Both the position numbers and the translations under genes were made by a program. A stretch of 64,000 nt of DNA from Lentibacillus sp. Marseille-P4043. Its GTDB lineage: Bacteria > Bacillota > Bacilli > Bacillales > Amphibacillaceae. The notes under the pieces are model-generated. The model worked only from the letters and a program-made list of their open reading frames with translations, did no database searches and had not been told where the DNA came from. Positions 6,909 through 48,697 of this stretch are shown here, piece by piece. Position 1 is the first letter of the stretch. Every line of letters starts with the position of its first letter. The DNA is taken from the NCBI RefSeq assembly GCF_900258515.1, contig NZ_LT984884.1, positions 3,470,499 through 3,534,498 on the forward strand. The letters run 5' to 3'.

Positions 6909-6978
6909 ACCATTCTATACCGATATACTTAAATGAAGGTATATGTGCAATTATCCCTTAAAAAGGTGGGTTTCAAGC

Positions 6979-7680
6979 ATGAAGAACACATACATCAAGC
7001 CAAACATATCTGATGAATTAAAAGGACTTTTAGATTCTGTTGACTACATTAAGCCAATCAAAAAAGGTAGCTTTTTATTTTCTGAGGGGGAAAGCGCTGA
7101 GGAGTTATACATTATCCAATCGGGAACAATCCAAATTGGTAAGCTATCACCTGATGGACGAGAGCTCACACTGCGGATTTGCGACAAAGGTGATATTGTT
7201 GGAGAACTTTCATTATACGATGATGTAAAATATATATTGAATGCGAAAGTATTAGCAGACGGTGAAGTCGCTGTTATAAAAAAATCCCATCTAGAAAATG
7301 AATTGGTAAATAACGGCAGCCTTGCAATTGAATTCATGAAAGTAATGAATCAGGCTTTCCGTCGTGATCAAACAAGGTTTCGTGATCTTGTTCTAAACGG
7401 AAAAAAAGGAGCGCTATTTTCCACATTAATTCGACTGTCTAATAGTTATGGCAAGAAACAAGATAACGGCAGTATTTATATTGATATGGTATTAACAAAT
7501 CAGGAACTGGCTAATTTTTGTGGGACATCCCGTGAAAGTGTTAACCGATTGTTAAATGAGCTGAAGCGAAGTACCATTATTTCAATGGAAAAAGGACACA
7601 TTATTATTCATAACTTACAATATTTAAAGGACGAGATAAACTGTGAAAACTGTCCGGTCGTATTGTGCAGCATCCATTAA
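6979..7680 (+). CDS. fnr: Fnr, oxygen-sensing [4Fe-4S] Crp/Fnr regulator
   Basis: Fnr activates anaerobic genes at TGTGA-N6-TCACA sites. This 233-residue protein has a cyclic-nucleotide-like beta barrel (about 25-110), a dimer helix and a Crp-type helix-turn-helix (LTNQELANFCGTSRESVNRLLNELKR). At the C-terminus is C222-x2-C225-x4-C230, the arrangement of the B. subtilis Fnr cluster ligands. Asp136 falls where the fourth ligand Asp of B. subtilis Fnr would be, by position. The ATG at 6979 has AAGGTGG eight bases upstream. Four Fnr-type sites found elsewhere in this window are its likely targets. Confidence 0.93.
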   Translation: MKNTYIKPNISDELKGLLDSVDYIKPIKKGSFLFSEGESAEELYIIQSGTIQIGKLSPDGRELTLRICDKGDIVGELSLYDDVKYILNAKVLADGEVAVIKKSHLENELVNNGSLAIEFMKVMNQAFRRDQTRFRDLVLNGKKGALFSTLIRLSNSYGKKQDNGSIYIDMVLTNQELANFCGTSRESVNRLLNELKRSTIISMEKGHIIIHNLQYLKDEINCENCPVVLCSIH

Positions 7681-7732: not shown

Positions 7733-8863
7733 TTACTTTTTCACTTTTCTTCTTCCACGCATCACTTTCGGAATATATACACAATATGGTTCTGATTCCA
7801 TATAATCCCCTGTAACACTATATGCTCTGGACCTTGAACCTCCGCAAACAAAGCGGAATTCACAGACTCCGCATTTTCCTTTATAGTTATCAGGATTCCG
7901 TAGATTTTTAAATATCTCCGATTCCCGGTAAATCGTTGCCAATGGTGTTGTTCTAACATTGCCAGCTTTTATAGGTAACAAACCACTCGGGTACACGTCA
8001 CCAGTATGGGAAATGAACACAAATCCATTCCCGTCATTTACCCCTTTTGGTGCGCGACCTAGACCATCAATTTGCCCGGTTTTTCCAGTCATTAATGCAT
8101 CCTCATAAAAAATCTGGTCGACATCGCTTCGCCCTTTATGTTCACGCATTTTACCTTGGATAACGACTCGACGGTAATGCTGTGCCGCTGTTGTCTTAAT
8201 ATCAAAAGATACACGTTTAGATAAGTTGTACAACCATCTTAGTGTTCGCTCATGTTCTGCTGGCGAGATCATATCCGATTCCTTTCCACGTCCTGTTGGA
8301 ACAAGGAAAAATACACTCCAAAGCACACAACCTAACCGTTCAACCATTTCCGCAAGCTTGTCTAGATAATCAACGTTGTAACGTGAAATAACAGTATTAA
8401 TTTGCAATGGCATCTCCAATTCATGCAAATAACGGATGGCATTCATTGTTAAATCGAACGAACCGGATGTGCCACGAAAATGATCATGAACTTCCGCACA
8501 GTGCCCATCAATACTAAAGGCCCAACGTGCTAACCCAACATCTTTCGCCTTCCGCATCGCTTCTTTTGTCACACTAGGGGTTGCGGATGGTGTCATTGAT
8601 ACTCGAACACCTTTTTTTACAGCGTATTCCGCAATTTCAAAAACATCCGGACGTTCTAATGGATCCCCACCAGTAAAGACAAGCATTGGATTATTCATTT
8701 CATAGATATCATCGATTAGTTTTCTCCCTTCATCCAATGTTAGTTCTCCTGGATGCCGATGATATTGAGCTTCAGCACGACAATGTAAACACTTTAATGC
8801 ACAAGCACGTGTTAATTCCCATATGACAATAAAGGGGTTTTCATTATAATCTTGTGAATACAT
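7733..8863 (-). CDS. Radical SAM/SPASM-type protein under Fnr-type control
   Basis: This 376-residue enzyme has the radical SAM cluster motif C21-x3-C25-x2-C28 in LTRACALKCLHCRAEA, followed by TGGDPLERPD (SAM binding). Near the C-terminus it has CGVCEFRFVCGGSRSRAYSVTGDYMESEPYC, a SPASM-like auxiliary cluster region. It resembles the NirJ/AhbC/AhbD haem-modifying group and the family I remember as TIGR04053; the substrate is unknown. The ATG follows AAGGAG. The Fnr-type promoter upstream (8899-8941) implies expression without oxygen. A haem, peptide or cofactor modification are all possible. Confidence 0.85.
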   Translation of the reverse strand: MYSQDYNENPFIVIWELTRACALKCLHCRAEAQYHRHPGELTLDEGRKLIDDIYEMNNPMLVFTGGDPLERPDVFEIAEYAVKKGVRVSMTPSATPSVTKEAMRKAKDVGLARWAFSIDGHCAEVHDHFRGTSGSFDLTMNAIRYLHELEMPLQINTVISRYNVDYLDKLAEMVERLGCVLWSVFFLVPTGRGKESDMISPAEHERTLRWLYNLSKRVSFDIKTTAAQHYRRVVIQGKMREHKGRSDVDQIFYEDALMTGKTGQIDGLGRAPKGVNDGNGFVFISHTGDVYPSGLLPIKAGNVRTTPLATIYRESEIFKNLRNPDNYKGKCGVCEFRFVCGGSRSRAYSVTGDYMESEPYCVYIPKVMRGRRKVKK

Positions 8864-8898: not shown

Positions 8899-8941
8899 AC
8901 AATACTATCTTTCAACTGCGCGGGATGTGATGATATTCACA
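8899..8941 (-). promoter_or_regulatory. Fnr-type promoter of the radical SAM gene
   Basis: TGTGA-TGATAT-TCACA (8926-8941) is a perfect match to the B. subtilis Fnr consensus. On the minus strand, 21 bases separate it from TATTGT (8904-8899), a fair -10. The box centre would be at -41.5 from the expected start, as in Fnr-activated class II promoters. The translation start follows at 8863. Confidence 0.85.
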
Positions 8942-9373: not shown

Positions 9374-9456
9374 TCGCTAGAACGTGATAGAATGAAGATG
9401 AATCATGTTAGTAAGCCTTTTGTACTAACGATTTACCAATGGAAAGGAGAATAATC

Positions 9457-10149
9457 ATGAACAGCCAATCCGTCCGAGAGCTTCTGCAAAAAGTCCCATT
9501 GTTCAAAGATTTAACCGAATATGAGATGGAGCCTATTGTGGATCTAGCGAAATCACGTATGTATCGACACGGGACACACATTTTCATGCAGGGCGACCCA
9601 TTAACAAATGTCTATTTTATTCGCCAGGGAAAAGTCAAAATATATAAGACAGATTTCCATGGGAAGGAGCAAATCGTCAATGTTCTTCAGCCGGATGATA
9701 TGTTTCCACATCAGGGCTTTTTCCGAAAAGATAGTTATCCGGCACATGCAGAAGTACTGGAGGATGCTATTCTGATCTATATTCCAATTCACTCCTTTGA
9801 AGACTTTCTCATTACGCATCCGGAAATTTGTATAAAATTATTCCGAGTTCTTGGTGACAAAATTGTTGATTTACAAAATAGATTAGAAGAAAAAATTTTG
9901 CATAATACATATGAGCAAATAATTATGCTCTTATTGCGTCTTGCCCGACATTACGGAAAAGAGATAAAGGACAATCAGACACGGATAAATACACATTTTA
10001 CGAACCGGGAACTTGCCAATATGATCGGATCCAGCCGAGAAACAGTTAGTCGCACACTAACACAATTGAAAAAACAACAATTAATAACGACAGATAAAGG
10101 TGGTTATTTTATTCTGCAAGCTAACAAGTTGGAAGATGAATTGTTTTAA
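9457..10149 (+). CDS. Crp/Fnr-family regulator without cysteine cluster
   Basis: The 230-residue protein has a Crp-type sensory barrel (about 10-115, with HGTHIFMQGDPLTNVYFIRQGKVKIY) and a C-terminal HTH (FTNRELANMIGSSRETVSRTLTQLKKQQL). It lacks the Cys pattern of the neighbouring Fnr and has no obvious cyclic-nucleotide phosphate-binding Arg-Ser pair. It may sense something other than oxygen through an Fe-S cluster; NO or haem, as in DNR/NnrR-type proteins, is a guess from context. The ATG at 9457 follows AAAGGAG; the upstream ATG at 9439 has no site. It lies between DUF2249 copies, divergent from the first. Confidence 0.88.
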   Translation: MNSQSVRELLQKVPLFKDLTEYEMEPIVDLAKSRMYRHGTHIFMQGDPLTNVYFIRQGKVKIYKTDFHGKEQIVNVLQPDDMFPHQGFFRKDSYPAHAEVLEDAILIYIPIHSFEDFLITHPEICIKLFRVLGDKIVDLQNRLEEKILHNTYEQIIMLLLRLARHYGKEIKDNQTRINTHFTNRELANMIGSSRETVSRTLTQLKKQQLITTDKGGYFILQANKLEDELF

Positions 10150-10272: not shown

Positions 10273-10315
10273 TGTGACACAAATCACTACTTTTCTAATT
10301 GAAAATGATTATCAT
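10273..10315 (+). promoter_or_regulatory. Fnr-type promoter of the DUF2249 operon
   Basis: TGTGA-CACAAA-TCACT (10273-10288) matches 9 of 10 Fnr consensus positions. It is followed after 21 bases by TATCAT (10310-10315), a good -10, so the box centre lies at -41.5 from the expected start near 10322. The geometry matches the radical SAM and haem-copper operon promoters. Confidence 0.8.
10300..10314 (+). promoter_or_regulatory. Fur-box-like sequence over the DUF2249 -10
   Basis: TGAAAATGATTATCA matches the 7-1-7 Fur consensus TGATAATNATTATCA at all but one position. The identical 15-mer precedes the siderophore lipoprotein gene at 26742. It covers the -10 hexamer, so iron-bound Fur would be expected to block the Fnr-type promoter. 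Confidence 0.65.
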
Positions 10316-10833: not shown

Positions 10834-12081
10834 ATGATGCCCGGTATGAGCATGAAATCAGACACTAATATAAAACTACCGCTCGCTTTTATTCTGTATG
10901 CATTGGTAGCCTTAGTTGCCGCACAAGTTATTCTTTTATTCCATAATGACCTATTATTAGCGGGGCATTTCCGGATTCCGGATATTTGGATGGGAGCGCA
11001 TTTTCTTCTGTTAGGATATGCCGTCATGATTGCGATGGGAGCTATGTACCAACTTGTTCCTGTCGCCTTCTTAACACCGATTTGGAATCAAACATTTGGC
11101 TATATACAATTTATTTTTACTGCCGTTGGGATAACGATGTTTGCAATACTACTTGGAGTAAAGCCGGATAGTGCAATTTACGGAGGAATCCTCGCCATTA
11201 TCGGCATTATCATGTTTATCATCCAAATGACAAAAACAATTGATAAACAGCAGAAGAAAAATATGATGACCCTTTTTGTTTCTGGTGCAATTATATGTTT
11301 CTTTTTAACAATTGCTGCTGGATTTTTGCTAGCGTGGAATATTGCCTTTGGAGGGGTTGGTAGCTATAACACGATCTTACATTCACACATTGTTCTAGGT
11401 GTGGCGGGATGGTTTACACTGTTGATTTTTGGATTTTCTTATAAACTTGTCCCAATGTTCAGTTTGTCGCATGGATTTTCCATGAAATGGGCTAAACCTG
11501 CATTTTTCACCTATATTGTTGGATTAATCGTTTTGATCGGATCATTTTGGATTGAAAATTCACTTATAACTGGGTTAGGTTGGTTATTACTGCTAGCTGG
11601 ATTTAGCTTCTTTTTCCTTGATATTCGAGAAATCCTGGCAAAGCGAATCAAGAAGAAATTGGATCGCCCATTTTCGTTTTCAATTTTGGCCATTCATATC
11701 GGATTGGGTATCCATGTAGCAGCCTTTATCTTATTTCTTTTTGGTGTAAACGACCAATTGATTTGGAGTTGGTTAATTTTCCTTTATGTGATGGGCTGGA
11801 TCATTTTCAGTATTTTAGGGTATCTGTATAAAATTGTCCCATTCCTTTGGTGGACACACAAATACTCAGATAGGATCGGTAAAGAGGAAGTCCCAACACT
11901 AAAAGAGATGATTAATGAAAAATTAGCGGTTGTCTTATTTATCCTATTTATCATTAGTGTAGTCGGACTGCTAATCGGTGGGTTATTACAAATTGGTGTA
12001 ATTGTACTCATTTTTCAAAGTCTACTCACCGTAACATCACTATTTTACACACTGTCAATTATCCGTGTTCTGCTCGTTTAA
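10834..12081 (+). CDS. Polytopic His-rich membrane protein, haem-copper subunit I/NnrS-like
   Basis: This 415-residue protein has about 11-12 transmembrane helices. Histidines at helix ends recall haem-copper oxidase subunit I or NnrS-type proteins: HNDLLLAGHFRIPDIWMGAHF in helices 1-2 and LHSHIVLGVAGWF in a middle helix. It lacks the HHQ pair for CuB, so an active binuclear centre is unlikely. The N-terminus MMPGMSMKSD is Met-rich. It lies in the operon of DUF2249 proteins and SufT, suggesting a haem- or NO-related membrane role. A weak GGTGA site precedes the start. The exact function is unknown. Confidence 0.8.
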   Translation: MMPGMSMKSDTNIKLPLAFILYALVALVAAQVILLFHNDLLLAGHFRIPDIWMGAHFLLLGYAVMIAMGAMYQLVPVAFLTPIWNQTFGYIQFIFTAVGITMFAILLGVKPDSAIYGGILAIIGIIMFIIQMTKTIDKQQKKNMMTLFVSGAIICFFLTIAAGFLLAWNIAFGGVGSYNTILHSHIVLGVAGWFTLLIFGFSYKLVPMFSLSHGFSMKWAKPAFFTYIVGLIVLIGSFWIENSLITGLGWLLLLAGFSFFFLDIREILAKRIKKKLDRPFSFSILAIHIGLGIHVAAFILFLFGVNDQLIWSWLIFLYVMGWIIFSILGYLYKIVPFLWWTHKYSDRIGKEEVPTLKEMINEKLAVVLFILFIISVVGLLIGGLLQIGVIVLIFQSLLTVTSLFYTLSIIRVLLV

Positions 12082-13014: not shown

Positions 13015-13248
13015 TCAGCCGCCACTTACCGGTGGAATAAACGCCACCACATCACCACTGGAAATCTTGGCATCCTCTGTTGCATATTCCTCATTAATGG
13101 CAACCATTGCATTGTCGATTGTATCAAGTTCATAAGTTTTTAACAGCTTCTCCTTCAGCTCTTTCACTGTAGTGATATTGGCTTCAACAGAGATTTTCTC
13201 CTTGCCAACCACTTCCTGCAACTCGGCAAAAAATAATACATCAATCAT
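13015..13248 (-). CDS. moaD: Molybdopterin synthase small subunit
   Basis: The 77-residue protein has a ubiquitin-like fold and ends in the diagnostic GG (IPPVSGG), which is thiocarboxylated to donate sulfur to precursor Z. Conserved features include FFAELQEVVGKEK and MVAINEEYATEDAKISSGDVVAFIPP. It overlaps the end of moaE by eight bases, indicating translational coupling. MoaD and MoaE together make molybdopterin, needed for nitrate reductase and other Mo enzymes. Confidence 0.93.
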   Translation of the reverse strand: MIDVLFFAELQEVVGKEKISVEANITTVKELKEKLLKTYELDTIDNAMVAINEEYATEDAKISSGDVVAFIPPVSGG

Positions 13249-13714
13249 TGCGCATTTCCTCCTCACTAGGCAATCTGTCTTGATAAGATATCTGTTCTTT
13301 CTGATCACCCATCCACTTTGTCCCATCTTCCCAATGTTCTTTTTTCCAAATCGGCACAATTTCTTTGATTCGTTCAATTGCATACCTGCTTGCTTCAAAG
13401 GAATCATTTCGATGTGGGGTTGAGACAGCGATTGCGACAGCGATATCCGATATTTCCAATCGACCAATTCGATGTACGATAGCCGTTTTAGCATCAGGCC
13501 ATTTTTCGTCAATTTCTGCACCAATTTGCGCAAGCTTCTTCTCTGCCATTGCAACATACGCCTGGTACTCTAAATATAACGTTCGCTTGCCTTTCGTAAA
13601 CTCACGAACGGTTCCAATAAAGGTATTAATTGCCCCGGCCTCAGCACGAACAACTTTGGTGATACAATCATTTAACTGGATTGGTTGATCGGTAATCCAA
13701 AAGTTTCTTTCCAT
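13241..13714 (-). CDS. moaE: Molybdopterin synthase large subunit
   Basis: The 157-residue MoaE has the N-terminal WITDQPIQLNDC and EAGAINTFIGTVREFTKGK region, the central YEAY-like LEYQAYVAMAEKKL, and the late ISDIAVAIAVSTPHRNDSFEASRYAIERIKEIVPIWKKE with the catalytic Lys region. It lies ten bases after mobB and overlaps moaD, so mobB-moaE-moaD is one operon. AAGG lies just before the start. Confidence 0.95.
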   Translation of the reverse strand: MERNFWITDQPIQLNDCITKVVRAEAGAINTFIGTVREFTKGKRTLYLEYQAYVAMAEKKLAQIGAEIDEKWPDAKTAIVHRIGRLEISDIAVAIAVSTPHRNDSFEASRYAIERIKEIVPIWKKEHWEDGTKWMGDQKEQISYQDRLPSEEEMRND

Positions 13715-13724
13715 CCTTACACCT

Positions 13725-14216
13725 TCAGTCTAGTATGTATTCAGCTAGTTGGTTTAAATATGATTCCATTTTGGTAATTGGGAATATTGGATATTTCACA
13801 TTTTCCAGTAAGTTCTCATCCCATGAACCTACTGCGATTATATTGGAAAGCTCGTTTAATAGCGATTCATCTTCTTTTCCTTTTACTAAAACAATTTTAG
13901 GGAAGTCAGCTGTTTTAAATCCTTCTATAAATAAAATATCAATCGCCATTCGTTCATATAAACGGAAAACTTCTTCTATTTTAATATTGCTAAAGATCAA
14001 TTGTGTTGTTGTTTCCCCTTGCACACCACTCATGTAGGAACCTGCAGTATAGTGTTGGTGGCTATCGGTTGTCTTCACCACGTCTGGCTCCCCACCATGT
14101 CCATGATGTTTAAATGAACCAACTTTTTTATTTTGATTGGAAAAATAACGAATAAGCTCGTTCATAACCGTTGTTTTACCGGAATTTTTATAACCGACAA
14201 TTTGGCATATTTTCAT
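13725..14216 (-). CDS. mobB: Molybdopterin-guanine dinucleotide biosynthesis adaptor MobB
   Basis: The 163-residue GTP-binding protein has a P-loop GYKNSGKTT at residues 8-16, a switch-like GSFKHHGHGG, and IDILFIEGFKTADFPKIVLV near the middle. MobB assists MobA in attaching GMP to molybdopterin. It leads the mobB-moaE-moaD set, with GAGGG upstream of the ATG. Other moa/moe genes are not in the window. Confidence 0.93.
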   Translation of the reverse strand: MKICQIVGYKNSGKTTVMNELIRYFSNQNKKVGSFKHHGHGGEPDVVKTTDSHQHYTAGSYMSGVQGETTTQLIFSNIKIEEVFRLYERMAIDILFIEGFKTADFPKIVLVKGKEDESLLNELSNIIAVGSWDENLLENVKYPIFPITKMESYLNQLAEYILD

Positions 14217-33321: not shown

Positions 33322-33879
33322 TTATTTATATTGTGATTGATCCACAACCATTAATTGTATGCCATATATGATCATACAGGCGGACATTGCTAGTGACCCC
33401 CAACCAAGTGTTTTTTGGTCAACCTCCAGATAGTTGTTACAAATCTGGTCATCCGAACCGATATACAACCATGCCATTACCATAAGAACCAACATGATAT
33501 ATACATAGATAATGCCTTTTCCAATTCCCCCTAGTCTACTCCAACTATCACGGAGAGGAACTCCCACCAAAAATGGTAAACTAATAAATTTAAATATTTC
33601 CACTGCCTGCACTGTAATTGCTTCATCCATTGCTCGTGGTATCATCCAATAACTCCAGACAATCATCAATAAGAGCATTCCCGCCACTCCATTGCTGTTC
33701 CATTTCCCGAAGAAGTGCGGAAATTTTCGTTGGAGGAATGGCGCCATCAAAAAACCTGAAATAACGAGTAGCGGTATTTGCATGTGCATATGCACGATCA
33801 TAATTGATTCTAATAGATTCGCAACCGGGGGAAGAATTAAGAAAACATATAGCAATAAACCATACATAGCCTGTTTCAT
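33322..33879 (-). CDS. Membrane protein of the haem-copper operon, unknown
   Basis: The 185-residue protein has five or six helices with His-Met-His-Met in IMIVHMHMQIPLLVISGFLM, LQRKFPHFFGKW and a conserved-looking SYWMIPRAMDEA. It starts within a few bases of the sco stop and is the last gene of the operon. The HxHxM segment suggests metal or haem handling, somewhat like CtaG/CaaG-type assembly factors. No firm family is recognised. Confidence 0.75.
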   Translation of the reverse strand: MKQAMYGLLLYVFLILPPVANLLESIMIVHMHMQIPLLVISGFLMAPFLQRKFPHFFGKWNSNGVAGMLLLMIVWSYWMIPRAMDEAITVQAVEIFKFISLPFLVGVPLRDSWSRLGGIGKGIIYVYIMLVLMVMAWLYIGSDDQICNNYLEVDQKTLGWGSLAMSACMIIYGIQLMVVDQSQYK

Positions 33880-33882
33880 TGA

Positions 33883-34515
33883 TTATTCCCCCGCTTCAAT
33901 TAGTATTTTGTTCACTGTGTTCGCGGCTTCATCTGTTTTAGTGAAATCCAATACTTCCAACAAATGTCCCTGCTTGCCGATCAAATAAAATGCTGTATTA
34001 TGGGTGAAATTCCCATTTCCATCTGGGATCACAACAACGCCCAATTTATTTAATAGTGTATCTAACTCCGTTTTATTCTTAACCCTCGCCATTCGCCACG
34101 TTTCTCCATCACTGCCGAAATAGGTGCGATACTTTGTCAGTGTTTCTGGATTATCCCGCTCCGGATCAAAACTAATGCTTAAAAATACAATGTCCTCTCC
34201 AATATATTTTTGCGGGATCATCTTATAAACATTAGCCATATTCATCTCTAATTGTGGACAAACGGTTGTACAACTCGTATACATAAACGTTAAAAACACA
34301 AATTTCCCCTCGGCAAACGAATCAAATGTATAGGTCCTTTCTCTACTATCTTGCAGTGTGACACTAGGAAATGTCGGCTTGTTTTTTATTAATTCATATG
34401 TTCTAGCACTTTCCGCAGTAAAAGCGTGAAATCCATCTGTACCAATATAAAACAAGATACTGCCAAAAATAATAACGATTGTTATAGCCAATGCATTACG
34501 CCGATTTTCGATCAT
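33883..34515 (-). CDS. Sco/SenC copper chaperone
   Basis: The 210-residue protein has one N-terminal helix (about 8-28) and a thioredoxin-like domain. It carries the copper motif C-x3-C in FMYTSCTTVCPQLEMNM and a late His in GNFTHNTAFYLIG. Sco proteins deliver copper to CuA. The ATG at 34515 has AAGGAAG eight bases upstream. Its place after subunits II and I with a CuA site is functionally coherent. Confidence 0.93.
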   Translation of the reverse strand: MIENRRNALAITIVIIFGSILFYIGTDGFHAFTAESARTYELIKNKPTFPSVTLQDSRERTYTFDSFAEGKFVFLTFMYTSCTTVCPQLEMNMANVYKMIPQKYIGEDIVFLSISFDPERDNPETLTKYRTYFGSDGETWRMARVKNKTELDTLLNKLGVVVIPDGNGNFTHNTAFYLIGKQGHLLEVLDFTKTDEAANTVNKILIEAGE

Positions 34516-34635
34516 TACCATCACTTCCTTAAGCAGAAGTTAGAGACTAGATGTCGGCAGGCAAGCATTGGAAAGGGAACTTGCTAATTTGCAAATACCC
34601 TTCCCAATCACCGACCCTTTATATCTCCCTTCGTA

Positions 34636-36315
34636 TTACCAAGTCTTAATTGGTGGTGATCCTGGTGGTGCATTGACAATAAAATCAACAATTGGTACAA
34701 CATACGCCATTGCAACAACCATCAGCATTAATACAATCCATAACCCCCACCGCTCTGTCCACAATGGAGTTGGCTGTGCATCAGCTTCCACCTCACCAAT
34801 TGGAAATTCTGTATTTCCTTTTGGTGCAAAAAACATCATGTTGAACACAGCGTAAACTTGAATGATGACACCCAAAAGCAGTAATGTTGCTCCAATTCCC
34901 ATTACATATTCGTATGGTATCCAGCTTAGTGCTGTTCCATGGTCGCCATATGTCGTATATGCAGTTCGTCTAGGATCACCTAATAATCCGACTAGATGTT
35001 GAGAGCCAGACATCAGGATCATCCCAACAGTCCAAATAATGGTTTGCACGATACCTAGTTTATTCATTTTTGATGTTAATTCTCGTTTTGATAAATACGG
35101 GATTAACCAATAACAAATCCCAAAGAAAGTTAAAACAACGGATGTGCCAACAGTTAAATGAAAGTGGCCAACTACCCACATAGTGTTATGAATAACCTGG
35201 TTCATCTGATTACTTGTATTTACAATTCCCCCAGCACCTGCAGGAATAAAGGCGATCATTGCGATCATCGGTGCTAAGAAACGTACGTCTCCCCATGGAA
35301 GTTTCTTAAACCAGCCAAGCAACCCTTTTCCACCTAATCTTCTTCCTGTCCGTTCAAAGAGCGCAAACATCGCAAATGCAGTCATGAGCGAAGGAAACGC
35401 AATCGAAATACTCATAAATACATGTAAAAATTTAATAGATTCCGAGATCCCTGGGTCAATGATTTGATGATGGAATCCACCAGGAATATTTAAAATGACT
35501 AATAGAATTACAACAACCCGTGCTAATTTATCATTAAATACACGGCCGCCAATGACTTTCGGTACAACGACATACCAGGCAGACGTTGCTACAATATACC
35601 AAATGTTTACGAGTGTATGGCCGAAGCTCCAAAATAGTGTACGACTTACCATAACGTTAATCGTTTCTTTCCACCCTAAAGACCAAGGAATAAGTGTTAG
35701 CACTTCAATTGTGACACCGATACTGCCGAAGAACCAAAGTACAAACACCCCCATCGCAAAAAATGCTAACAATGGTGTTACTTCCCCGCGATGATGTTTT
35801 CTCCAATGAAAATAATTGATGAAAGCACCAAAACAACAAGACCAAATCCCGAGTACAACAAACACTAATCCGATATAAAACACGGGAGAAGCTGCTAATG
35901 GCGGATAAAATGTATATAGTACAGATGCTTCATTCATTAAAATTGTAATAATTACTAATGCAACTCCAACCATCATCAAGCCAAATCCGATCCAGGCCAG
36001 TTTCCGAACCTTAGGTAGGAGTCCGCCGAGTGTGTGTGAAAGTCCTGCGTATAGATAACCAATGGTAAAAGTAGTTGTAAAAATAAGGATTAATAAAATT
36101 CCGTGTGCTGTTAACACTTGATAGTAATTTAACCATACTGGCAATTCCAACAAACCTGCACGTTGTAACCCCTGCAATAATCCTAAAATACCGCCAATGA
36201 GCAACGTGATAAATGATACAGTTAAATATGCCTTTGATAGTTTGGCATCTTGAAGGTTAACACCTAAAGCTTTTCGGGCTTCTTTGCGAATAGTTGTTTT
36301 TACTGCTCGTTCCAT
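34636..36315 (-). CDS. B-family haem-copper subunit I lacking the active-site Tyr (putative NO reductase)
   Basis: The 559-residue protein has about 13 helices and aligns with ba3-type oxidase subunit I, with identical numbering through the core. Metal ligands are present: His71 (TAHGILL), His233 (SFGHTLVN), His282-His283 (GFHHQIIDPG), His384 and His386 (GHFHLTV). In ba3 oxidase the helix VI motif is GHPIVY, with Tyr237 cross-linked to His233; here it is GHTLVN, so residue 237 is Asn. Tyr244 is Thr, and the 309-312 K-channel segment is altered. Absence of the Tyr is a hallmark of NO-reducing relatives such as CuA-type NORs. Upstream tandem Fnr boxes support anaerobic use. GGAGGG precedes the ATG. 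Confidence 0.88.
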   Translation of the reverse strand: MERAVKTTIRKEARKALGVNLQDAKLSKAYLTVSFITLLIGGILGLLQGLQRAGLLELPVWLNYYQVLTAHGILLILIFTTTFTIGYLYAGLSHTLGGLLPKVRKLAWIGFGLMMVGVALVIITILMNEASVLYTFYPPLAASPVFYIGLVFVVLGIWSCCFGAFINYFHWRKHHRGEVTPLLAFFAMGVFVLWFFGSIGVTIEVLTLIPWSLGWKETINVMVSRTLFWSFGHTLVNIWYIVATSAWYVVVPKVIGGRVFNDKLARVVVILLVILNIPGGFHHQIIDPGISESIKFLHVFMSISIAFPSLMTAFAMFALFERTGRRLGGKGLLGWFKKLPWGDVRFLAPMIAMIAFIPAGAGGIVNTSNQMNQVIHNTMWVVGHFHLTVGTSVVLTFFGICYWLIPYLSKRELTSKMNKLGIVQTIIWTVGMILMSGSQHLVGLLGDPRRTAYTTYGDHGTALSWIPYEYVMGIGATLLLLGVIIQVYAVFNMMFFAPKGNTEFPIGEVEADAQPTPLWTERWGLWIVLMLMVVAMAYVVPIVDFIVNAPPGSPPIKTW

Positions 36316-36330
36316 TTATGTTTCCCTCCT

Positions 36331-36792
36331 TTACTTCACCGTAATTGTTGTAGACATTAACTGATGTCCTGTTCCACAATATTCATTACATAGCACTAAA
36401 TAGCTGCCAGGTTCATCAAATGTATGTGCTATTTTCTGAATATGTCCTGGCATAACCATTGCATTTATATTTGTTCCAGCAACTTGAAATCCATGTGTTA
36501 CATCCTTAGAAGTCATGGTAAAGTTAATTTTTGCTCCAGCTGGGACTTCAATATTTCCAGGGGTAAAACCGAATGCTTGTAACGTCATGACTACTTCATA
36601 TTCATTTTTGCCAATCTGCTTAATCCCTGGCTCGTCAAATGGAGCAGTTTGGTCTACCTTTTGTGGATCAATTGTATCTTTATCACTCGGCGGCCCCATT
36701 TCAAGTGCAAATGTTTGATACCCAACGACGACCATAAATAATATTAAAATACCGGCACTTAAAGCAAGCCAGATTTCTTCAAATCGATGCAT
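36331..36792 (-). CDS. CuA-bearing subunit II
   Basis: The 153-residue protein has one N-terminal anchor (about 8-29) and a cupredoxin domain with an intact CuA site: VTHGFQV for the first His and LCNEYCGTGHQLM for two Cys, His and Met. This is the ba3-type subunit II that accepts electrons from cytochrome c or another donor. AGGAGGG precedes the ATG. It is followed 15 bases later by subunit I. Confidence 0.95.
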   Translation of the reverse strand: MHRFEEIWLALSAGILILFMVVVGYQTFALEMGPPSDKDTIDPQKVDQTAPFDEPGIKQIGKNEYEVVMTLQAFGFTPGNIEVPAGAKINFTMTSKDVTHGFQVAGTNINAMVMPGHIQKIAHTFDEPGSYLVLCNEYCGTGHQLMSTTITVK

Positions 36793-36803
36793 GTCATTCC
36801 CTC

Positions 36804-36950
36804 CTATACTCTAGCCATATATATCCAAAATACTGCCACCCACATGATGACGATAACAGCTCCGACAATGCCTACTGAGATTAATGTGCCTCGTAATGAT
36901 TTCTCGTCTTCAGTTTGTTTTTCAGAAAGATTCGTTTTGGTCGTTTCCAT
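36804..36950 (-). CDS. Small subunit IIa-like protein of the ba3-type complex
   Basis: The 48-residue protein METTKTNLSEKQTEDEKSLR continues GTLISVGIVGAVIVIMWVAVFWIYMARV: a soluble acidic N-terminus and one helix, as in cytochrome c oxidase subunit IIa of B-family enzymes. It lies just upstream of subunit II, with AAGGAGG seven bases before the ATG. It heads the operon of small subunit, II, I, Sco and a membrane protein. Confidence 0.85.
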   Translation of the reverse strand: METTKTNLSEKQTEDEKSLRGTLISVGIVGAVIVIMWVAVFWIYMARV

Positions 36951-36990
36951 TTCCACCCCTCCTTCGCTTCGTACTATCTATTACACTTAC

Positions 36991-37055
36991 ATCATAATCT
37001 GGGAGATAATGTGGAGAAGTGAAATGAATCACAAGCAACTGTGATTTTTCTTACA
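36991..37055 (-). promoter_or_regulatory. Tandem Fnr-type boxes and promoter of the haem-copper operon
   Basis: On the minus strand, TGTGA-TTCATT-TCACT (37033-37018) matches 9 of 10 Fnr positions. Exactly 21 bases later is TATGAT (36996-36991), placing the box at -41.5 from the expected start. A second box, TGTAA-GAAAAA-TCACA (37055-37040), also matches 9 of 10 positions and lies 22 bases further upstream, two helical turns away. The same geometry is seen at 8926 and 10273. Confidence 0.82.
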
Positions 37056-37202
37056 ATCGCTTTCAACAATTTAACCAGAACAAACGATTTTTCATAAAGG
37101 CTGTTTCAAATAGATTGTTGTTTTTGACACAACAGATATATAATACGACGTAACTTTAGTGTGACTTTCTCTCGTCCTATCTAAAATGAGTGCTAATCCA
37201 GC

Positions 37203-37321
37203 GCTGCGGGAAAATACTCGCTTTCCATGGGGAACGCTTCAGCCTCCTCGGAAGAAAACCACTTCCTGCGGGGTCTTCAGACTGTTCCTTTTCCCATAGG
37301 AGTCTCGCATTTTCCCGCAGC
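37203..37321. repeat. Inverted-pair repeat element, copy 1
   Basis: The core runs CGCTTTCC...CTTCAGCCTCCTCGG...CTGCGGGGTCTTCAGAC...CCCATAGGAGTCTCG. It is bounded by a copy-specific perfect 13-bp inverted pair, GCTGCGGGAAAAT and ATTTTCCCGCAGC. It pairs with copy 2 in opposite orientation about 100 bp away, and the flanks are also partly inverted. Together they fill the 927-bp gap 36951-37877, in which I see no credible gene. Confidence 0.8.
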
Positions 37322-37421
37322 TTAGAATAATTTTCTATTCAACTGATAAGAACTATTCTAAACGTTGATTTTATGGGCAATAACCAAACCACTCTATATT
37401 CAGAAATTTCCTATCAGCGCA

Positions 37422-37530
37422 GGCAGAATACGTAGACTCCTGCGGGAAAAGCACGTGTCTGAAGACCCCGCAGCGGCGGTTTCCCGCGAGGAGGCTGAAG
37501 CCGTGCCCGCGGAAAGCGAAGTATTCTGCC
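37422..37530. repeat. Inverted-pair repeat element, copy 2
   Basis: This is the reverse orientation of copy 1, with core GACTCCTGCGGG...GTCTGAAGACCCCGCAG...GAGGAGGCTGAAG...GGAAAGCG. The outer inverted pair is GGCAGAATAC and GTATTCTGCC, perfect over ten bases and different from that of copy 1. Confidence 0.8.
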
Positions 37531-37656
37531 GGAGCGAAATCTAAGCACTCAATCATCATTAGAACCGGAATAAAAGTCACAAAATAGAAATTTCATTACG
37601 TCGCATTCTATATCAACTACGCAATTAAACTTAACAAACATTACGAATAGAGCCTT

Positions 37657-48594: not shown

Positions 48595-48697
48595 GGGCAG
48601 TCGACTCCTGCGGGAACAGCACGTATCTGAAGACCCCGCAGGAAGCGGTTTTTACTTCCGAGGAGGCTGAAGCCGTGCCCGCGGAAAGCGACTGCCC
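48595..48697. repeat. Inverted-pair repeat element, copy 4
   Basis: The core is the same as copy 2 (GACTCCTGCGGGAACAGCAC...CTGAAGACCCCGCAGG...GAGGAGGCTGAAGCCGTGCCC). The outer inverted pair is GGGCAGTCG and CGACTGCCC, perfect over nine bases. It faces copy 3 in opposite orientation. Confidence 0.8.

Follow-up and report, generated by a model that had tools for sequence, protein, structure and literature searches.

The window analysed here is a 64,000-nucleotide stretch of the genome of Lentibacillus sp. Marseille-P4043 (contig NZ_LT984884.1, positions 3,470,499 to 3,534,498), and its minus strand holds a single operon, running from position 37055 down to 33322, that encodes a B-family haem-copper enzyme. 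Five genes lie in the order cbaC-cbaB-cbaA-senC-cbaD (Table 1), with intergenic gaps of 3–15 bp and, as the exception, 111 bp ahead of the SCO gene. An original prediction, made from the DNA letters, had read the operon as a probable nitric oxide (NO) reductase behind Fnr-type boxes. The membrane protein with an HxHxM motif and 185 residues that it described was confirmed, and the small CoxIIa-like gene cbaC was absent from it.

The residues of both subunits were compared with those of Tyr-bearing b(o/a)3 oxidases and of bNOR, the CuA-containing NO reductase type of Bacillus azotoformans. The loci compared were 60 bNOR loci (59 from the host's bacterial family and that of B. azotoformans), 80 named bNOR loci and 23 oxidase loci; the subunit I alignment comprised 61 bNOR rows, including the operon, B. 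azotoformans (L191) and N. bataviensis (L052), and 22 oxidase rows, with oxidase locus L153 left out because its extracted open reading frame had only 154 residues. Aligned to the Thermus ba3 enzyme, subunit I retains H71, H233, H282, H283, H384 and H386, i.e. every metal-ligand histidine, and ba3 positions 237 and 244 are Asn and Thr, respectively, all as originally read. Asn237 was found in 61/61 bNOR rows and Tyr237 in 22/22 oxidase rows, and position 244 is occupied by Thr, Ile, Val, Leu or Ala across the bNOR rows. The columns separating the two groups also include Y240, N276, G279 and S302; the tyrosine at 240, missing from the original prediction, occurs in 95% or more of the 61 bNOR rows, with Leu in 22/22 oxidase rows and Phe at the named locus L083. 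The claim that the 309–312 segment of the K-channel is changed was wrong, as all 61 bNOR rows retain S309 and T312, and Y248 as well; T315 is Ala in 60/61. The helix VI motif GH-x-x-V-N is common to 58 fetched members of the bNOR set, the host operon and the 80 named loci (partly the same genomes), and GH-[PA]-L-V-Y is found in L176 and in all 21 readable rows of a second set at 47–55% identity, from which 22 of 82 rows were fetched. Subunit II was said to keep CuA, and the motif C135-NEY-C139-GTG-H143-QL-M146 plus H100 is indeed present, with H100 and C139 conserved in 60/60 bNOR and 23/23 oxidase loci. Glu at position 5 of subunit II, which had gone unmentioned, is equally conserved (60/60 and 23/23); judging from its motif, we take it to be the equivalent of the K-path entry Glu15 of ba3.

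One bNOR-like gene (L183/L192, contig 306 of genome G362) reads GHTAVY near a contig end. The gene runs into that end, its adjoining residues are odd too, and another contig, L198, holds the 3' portion of a gene of this kind and matches query residues 218–559 at 70%; a Tyr237-bearing bNOR at this locus was therefore rejected as a probable contig-end artefact.

A family search across 159 genomes returned 59 rows in 59 genomes at 62–100% identity and a separate set of 82 rows in 79 genomes at 47–55%. In a subunit I tree of 85 rows, the 61 Asn rows and the 22 Tyr-bearing b(o/a)3 oxidases were split by one branch with a Shimodaira–Hasegawa-like approximate likelihood ratio test (SH-aLRT) value of 100. 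The tree, which had been proposed as a check, thus places the host subunit I outside the Tyr-bearing oxidase clade and with the B. azotoformans protein. That B. azotoformans has a CuA-containing NO reductase, as the original prediction had stated, is borne out by Heylen and Keltjens 2012 (PMC3475470), where the genes of the purified enzyme are identified via N-terminal sequences and where replacement of the cross-linking Tyr by Asn, a neighbouring SenC gene and a gene for a six-helix protein are reported. The N-terminal pattern of subunit II was matched by 2/397 genomes. In genome G336 (locus L182/L191), subunit II starts at C42:105051, the cbaB1 coordinate in the gene table of PMC3475470; the published N-terminus of the small peptide comes before it, and the subunit I that comes next has the motif GHTAVN. 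The host operon is 65% (subunit I), 69% (subunit II), 49% (IIa), 62% (SCO) and 55% (six-helix protein) identical to the B. azotoformans locus, and its subunit I is 68% identical to that of N. bataviensis LMG 21833 (L052), the second organism of PMC3475470. Matches of subunit I in the PDB (20 at E ≤ 0.001; best 2.1e-99, Thermus ba3) are all labelled cytochrome c oxidase subunit I or ba3-type oxidase, and none of these 20 carries a NO reductase label, so that its closest relatives among them are not NorB-type proteins (cNOR/qNOR).

Gene linkage separates the two groups as well. The SCO gene is linked in 59/60 bNOR, 76/80 named and 0/23 oxidase loci, and the six-helix gene in 58/60, 76/80 and 0/23, respectively; as to the exceptions, the L128 stretch ends before the six-helix gene and the fetched stretch of L151 shows neither gene. 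The IIa peptide was detected in 34/60 bNOR, 69/80 named and 19/23 oxidase loci, and since it also occurs at the latter it is not diagnostic of bNOR. The six helices of CbaD-type proteins are taken from PMC3475470. In an alignment of 53 six-helix proteins, E24, M27, H30, M31, H32, Q34 and C147 are invariant; family and fold searches named no function for CbaD, and the invariant residues fit a probable metal-handling assembly factor dedicated to bNOR.

The operon thus has Asn237 together with the six histidines, a separate CuA subunit II, linked genes for the small peptide, SenC and the six-helix protein, and a place in the tree beside the genes of a purified enzyme, and it lacks both the cross-linkable Tyr237 and the position within the Tyr-bearing clade that mark ba3-type oxygen reductases. 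On these sequence grounds we predict, with a probability of about 0.93, that it encodes a bNOR (CuA-NOR, qCuANOR type I), a B-family haem-copper NO reductase like that of B. azotoformans. Descent and the diagnostic residue therefore support the original assignment, which, for this enzyme type, has been in print since 2012 (PMC3475470).

Table 1. Genes, promoter elements and Crp/Fnr-family regulators in the window.
Feature	Position	Strand	Description	Evidence
cbaC	36804..36950	-	Subunit IIa-like peptide with one helix, 48 residues	Pfam CoxIIa 22.6 bits (cut-off 20.7); 49% identity to B. azotoformans peptide
cbaB	36331..36792	-	CuA subunit II, 153 residues	Pfam COX2; 69% identity to B. azotoformans cbaB1
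cbaA	34636..36315	-	Subunit I, 559 residues, Asn at Tyr237 position	Pfam COX1 275 bits
senC/SCO1-type copper chaperone	33883..34524	-	213 residues from GTG as called, start uncertain	Pfam SCO1-SenC 64.9 bits
cbaD	33322..33879	-	185-residue helical HxHxM membrane protein, probable assembly factor	AlphaFold model, mean predicted local distance difference test (pLDDT) 93.2
Distal Fnr/Crp-type box	37040..37055	-	TGTAAGAAAAATCACA	Centre -63.5 from inferred start
Proximal Fnr/Crp-type box	37018..37033	-	TGTGATTCATTTCACT	Centre -41.5, class II position
-10 element	36991..36996	-	TATGAT	Class II distance from proximal box
Crp/Fnr-family regulator, candidate oxygen-sensing Fnr	6943..7680	+	C-terminal C-x2-C-x4-C; start codon uncertain	Pfam cNMP_binding, HTH_Crp_2
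Second Crp/Fnr-family regulator	9439..10149	+	Single Cys	Pfam match

The promoter was borne out as originally described, with two Fnr-type boxes 22 bp apart (centre to centre), each with one mismatch to TGTGA-N6-TCACA, and a TATGAT at the class II distance. Upstream regions were defined as the 500 bp ahead of subunit II, and a box with at most one mismatch was found in 53/60 of those at bNOR loci, compared to 1.1 expected from mononucleotide shuffles. TAnnnT lies at the exact class II offset from the box nearest subunit II in 56/57 loci (3/60 were dropped as no box lay within the range used), with 6 at the best other among the 16 offsets listed. An independent set of 59 named loci, scored over a slightly wider position range after 21/80 with upstream DNA identical to a host-family locus had been dropped, gave 48/59, with 3 at the best other among the 13 offsets listed. 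The class II site is therefore general to the bNOR loci examined, whereas at the 12 oxidase loci with a box scored for offset TAnnnT was found 0 times at the class II offset and twice at the next. Box pairs 21–23 bp apart occur at 48/60 bNOR loci as opposed to 0/23 oxidase and 0/59 independent bNOR loci, so that the distal box seems to belong to the host's own bacterial family. Promoter conservation thus supports a predicted class II control of the operon by an Fnr/Crp-type protein, in agreement with the original prediction.

Just upstream of the operon promoter, an inverted-repeat element spans 37195–37535 with two 40-nt arm pairs (85% and 80% complementary). Its motif GAAGACCCCGCAG has a third copy at 48629–48641 (three found in the 64-kb window, 0.02 expected).

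NarG was detected over cut-off in the host genome, as it was in 52/59 bNOR genomes compared to 16/100 others, lying within 15 kb of bNOR in 11 of them (relatedness uncorrected). NirK-like proteins (E ≤ 1e-33) were found in 33/59 bNOR genomes and 2/100 others, again uncorrected for relatedness; in G097, G098 and G100 the distance between such a gene and that of bNOR subunit I is about 1.1, 1.4 and 3.3 kb. The host genome itself gave no NirK match at E ≤ 0.001. Its two NosZ matches, the better of which is the CuA subunit of this very operon, fell short of the cut-off, as did five weak NirB matches. It encodes three COX1-family proteins over cut-off, one being the operon's subunit I and the other two scoring about 520 bits; no qNOR-type protein was seen among the three, two of which were not classified further. 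As the host has NarG and neither NirK nor, over cut-off, NosZ or NirB was found, the enzyme probably disposes of NO from nitrate respiration, and its likely role is to respire or remove NO formed in that process, releasing N2O. According to PMC4719734, Bacillus vireti reduces nitrite to ammonium and makes N2O with bNOR, which within the literature surveyed would make it the nearest published parallel for bNOR outside canonical denitrification.

Several observations weigh against this assignment and role. Most of the other active-site residues are common to Tyr-bearing relatives, and one substitution therefore carries much of the functional inference. The two outgroups of the tree had branch lengths of 4.0 and about 10, a warning of long-branch joining, for which reason the Asn/Tyr split was used and not the root. 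Boxes with at most one mismatch also occur at oxidase loci (7/23 compared to 0.3 expected, though not at the class II offset), so that Fnr-type boxes as such are not bNOR-specific. All NirK-like matches scored under the NCBIfam cut-off (best 206.7 compared to 296.3 bits), 26/59 bNOR genomes had no such match, and the Fisher tests ignore phylogeny; with no NirK match, the host genome yielded no dedicated NO source, in a search that did not extend to NirS, NrfA or NO synthase. The six histidines, CuA and most of the K-path, being common to Tyr-bearing b(o/a)3 oxidases, would also suit a true B-family terminal oxidase without Tyr237 in which the role of the tyrosine is supplied elsewhere, e.g. 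by Tyr240, the residue that nearly all bNOR rows share and that is Leu in the oxidases. However, Y240 is at i+7 from H233, by reasoning about 10 angstroms away on an ideal helix and beyond cross-linking, and the sequence around H282/H283 contains no Tyr, for which reasons a relocated tyrosine was rejected; furthermore, the clade holds the gene of a purified NO reductase and the gene linkage is unlike that of oxidases, making an oxidase very improbable. A milder alternative accepts NO reduction and holds that the enzyme serves mainly for NO detoxification under some oxygen and not for anaerobic respiration, which would agree with a host in which neither NirK nor, over cut-off, NosZ or NirB was found. 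The NarG co-occurrence and the class II Fnr/Crp-type promoter instead point to anoxia, and we regard detoxification as a possible but less favoured main role, the two roles being compatible.

Which protein reads the boxes was considered with regard to the two Crp/Fnr-family regulators of the window. The C-x2-C-x4-C of the first presumably resembles the cluster motif of Bacillus Fnr. The second (E ≤ 1e-40) was found in 57/59 bNOR genomes compared to 13/100 others (relatedness uncorrected), and in 51/52 compared to 5/16 when only NarG-positive genomes were counted; in 16 genomes its gene is no more than 6 kb away from that of subunit I. These associations would suit a reading of the boxes by another Crp-family factor, either this regulator or an ArcR-type protein, in place of Fnr; the helix-turn-helix of both window regulators contains R-E-x-V-x-R, so that this motif alone cannot tell them apart. 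On the other hand, the window also holds the protein with what we take to be the Bacillus Fnr signature, and G030, a bNOR-positive genome without a second-regulator match at the same threshold, has a perfect box and a TATGCT at the class II offset. Furthermore, a relative of the second regulator was present in the fetched stretches, to which this count is confined, of 17/80 named bNOR loci, as opposed to the class II site in 48/59 independent ones. Control by another Crp-family factor is a possible but less likely alternative.

Ten of the 11 host-family locus copies of the second regulator contain no Cys and the single partial copy contains one; the more distant copies at the 17 named loci have 0–4, and a metal site is thus still possible in some. 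The bNOR genomes without it (G030 and G115) lack the box pair, but as some regulator-bearing genomes lack the pair also, they carry little weight. A less likely model for the host family would be a two-input promoter, in which Fnr at the class II site senses the lack of oxygen and the 9439–10149 protein, as a haem- or NO-responsive DNR-like activator, acts on the second site 21–23 bp upstream. If this model holds, the protein would be an activator of a kind not yet described, Gram-positive, NO-sensing and dedicated to bNOR.

In the bNOR mechanism that we propose, electrons would enter at CuA in subunit II and reach the high-spin haem (H384) by way of the low-spin haem (H71, H386). Next to the high-spin haem, at a three-histidine metal site (H233, H282, H283), two NO would be converted to N2O and water. 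N237 could not take the place of the cross-linked Tyr, the donor of an electron and a proton in O2 cleavage; because two NO are reduced with only two electrons and without cleavage of an O–O bond, the Tyr is dispensable and its loss expected. A title cited in PMC4719734 attributes a diiron site to the enzyme of B. azotoformans, and the metal beside the high-spin haem may therefore be iron and not copper. Protons would be taken up from the cytoplasm via a modified K-type path formed by E5 of subunit II, Y248, T312, S309 and perhaps Y240, in which case turnover would be electrogenic. For the B. azotoformans enzyme, NO reductase activity with menaquinol and cytochrome c551 as donors has been reported (PMC3475470, PMC5826923); PMC5826923 describes its activity as high, its turnover as electrogenic and many features of its K-pathway as conserved. 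The host enzyme retains most of that K-path. SenC probably loads CuA, and CbaD probably aids metal insertion or assembly. The operon is probably switched on by an Fnr/Crp-family protein acting at the class II site, to which the host family adds the second site upstream.

Compared to the B. azotoformans system, the host operon is alike in its five genes and their order, Asn237, the CuA subunit II and the IIa peptide (49–69% identity); it differs in its promoter, with a pair of Fnr-type boxes compared to a single one at the B. azotoformans locus, and in a host without a NirK match or NosZ over cut-off. The b(o/a)3/ba3 oxidases of Thermus thermophilus (2qpd) and Bacillaceae share a B-family subunit I, the six histidines, CuA, the IIa peptide, T312, Y248 and S309 (21/22 oxidase rows), but have Tyr237, Y244 and L240, no linked senC or cbaD (0/23) and 45–55% identity, and of their upstream regions 13/23 have boxes, with TAnnnT at the class II offset in 0/12 scored. 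A qCuANOR type II candidate from N. bataviensis (L178, not matched to a published locus; 488 residues as called) likewise has an Asn at the fourth residue past the His of helix VI and is 23% identical to the host subunit I over part of its length. In Bacillus licheniformis, the qnorB-linked fnr2 (PMC4719734) is likewise a second Crp/Fnr gene beside a NO reductase gene, though the reductase is different.

The original prediction was also right to expect annotation as a terminal oxidase, as relatives, where named, are labelled cbb3-type, b(o/a)3-type or plain cytochrome c oxidase subunit I. Such labels hide a NO-reducing, N2O-releasing step, and 59/159 host-family genomes carry bNOR. The general point has already been made for Bacillota in PMC11388526, which reports bNOR in 123/433 genomes with NOR or Nos. 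The enzyme family, its five-gene cluster and the Tyr-to-Asn exchange are already described, and the original prediction was a largely correct reading of that family, with its K-channel detail partly wrong; new here are the host member, the conserved class II promoter with a lineage-specific second site, and the association with a candidate dedicated regulator.

The surroundings of the window regulators contain further features. A perfect TGTGA-N6-TCACA palindrome at 8926–8941 lies between a TIGR04053 radical SAM/SPASM gene (7733–8863, with the palindrome upstream of it) and the second regulator. Downstream of this regulator and of an Fnr-type box at 10273–10288 lies a gene at 10834–12081. Its product of 415 residues matches COX1 weakly, at 33.3 bits for a cut-off of 34.8, and may be a degenerate haem-copper relative. 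NarG needs the molybdenum cofactor, and moaD, moaE-like and mobB molybdopterin genes stand in a row at 13015–14216, in a stretch that also holds the Fnr-type regulators.

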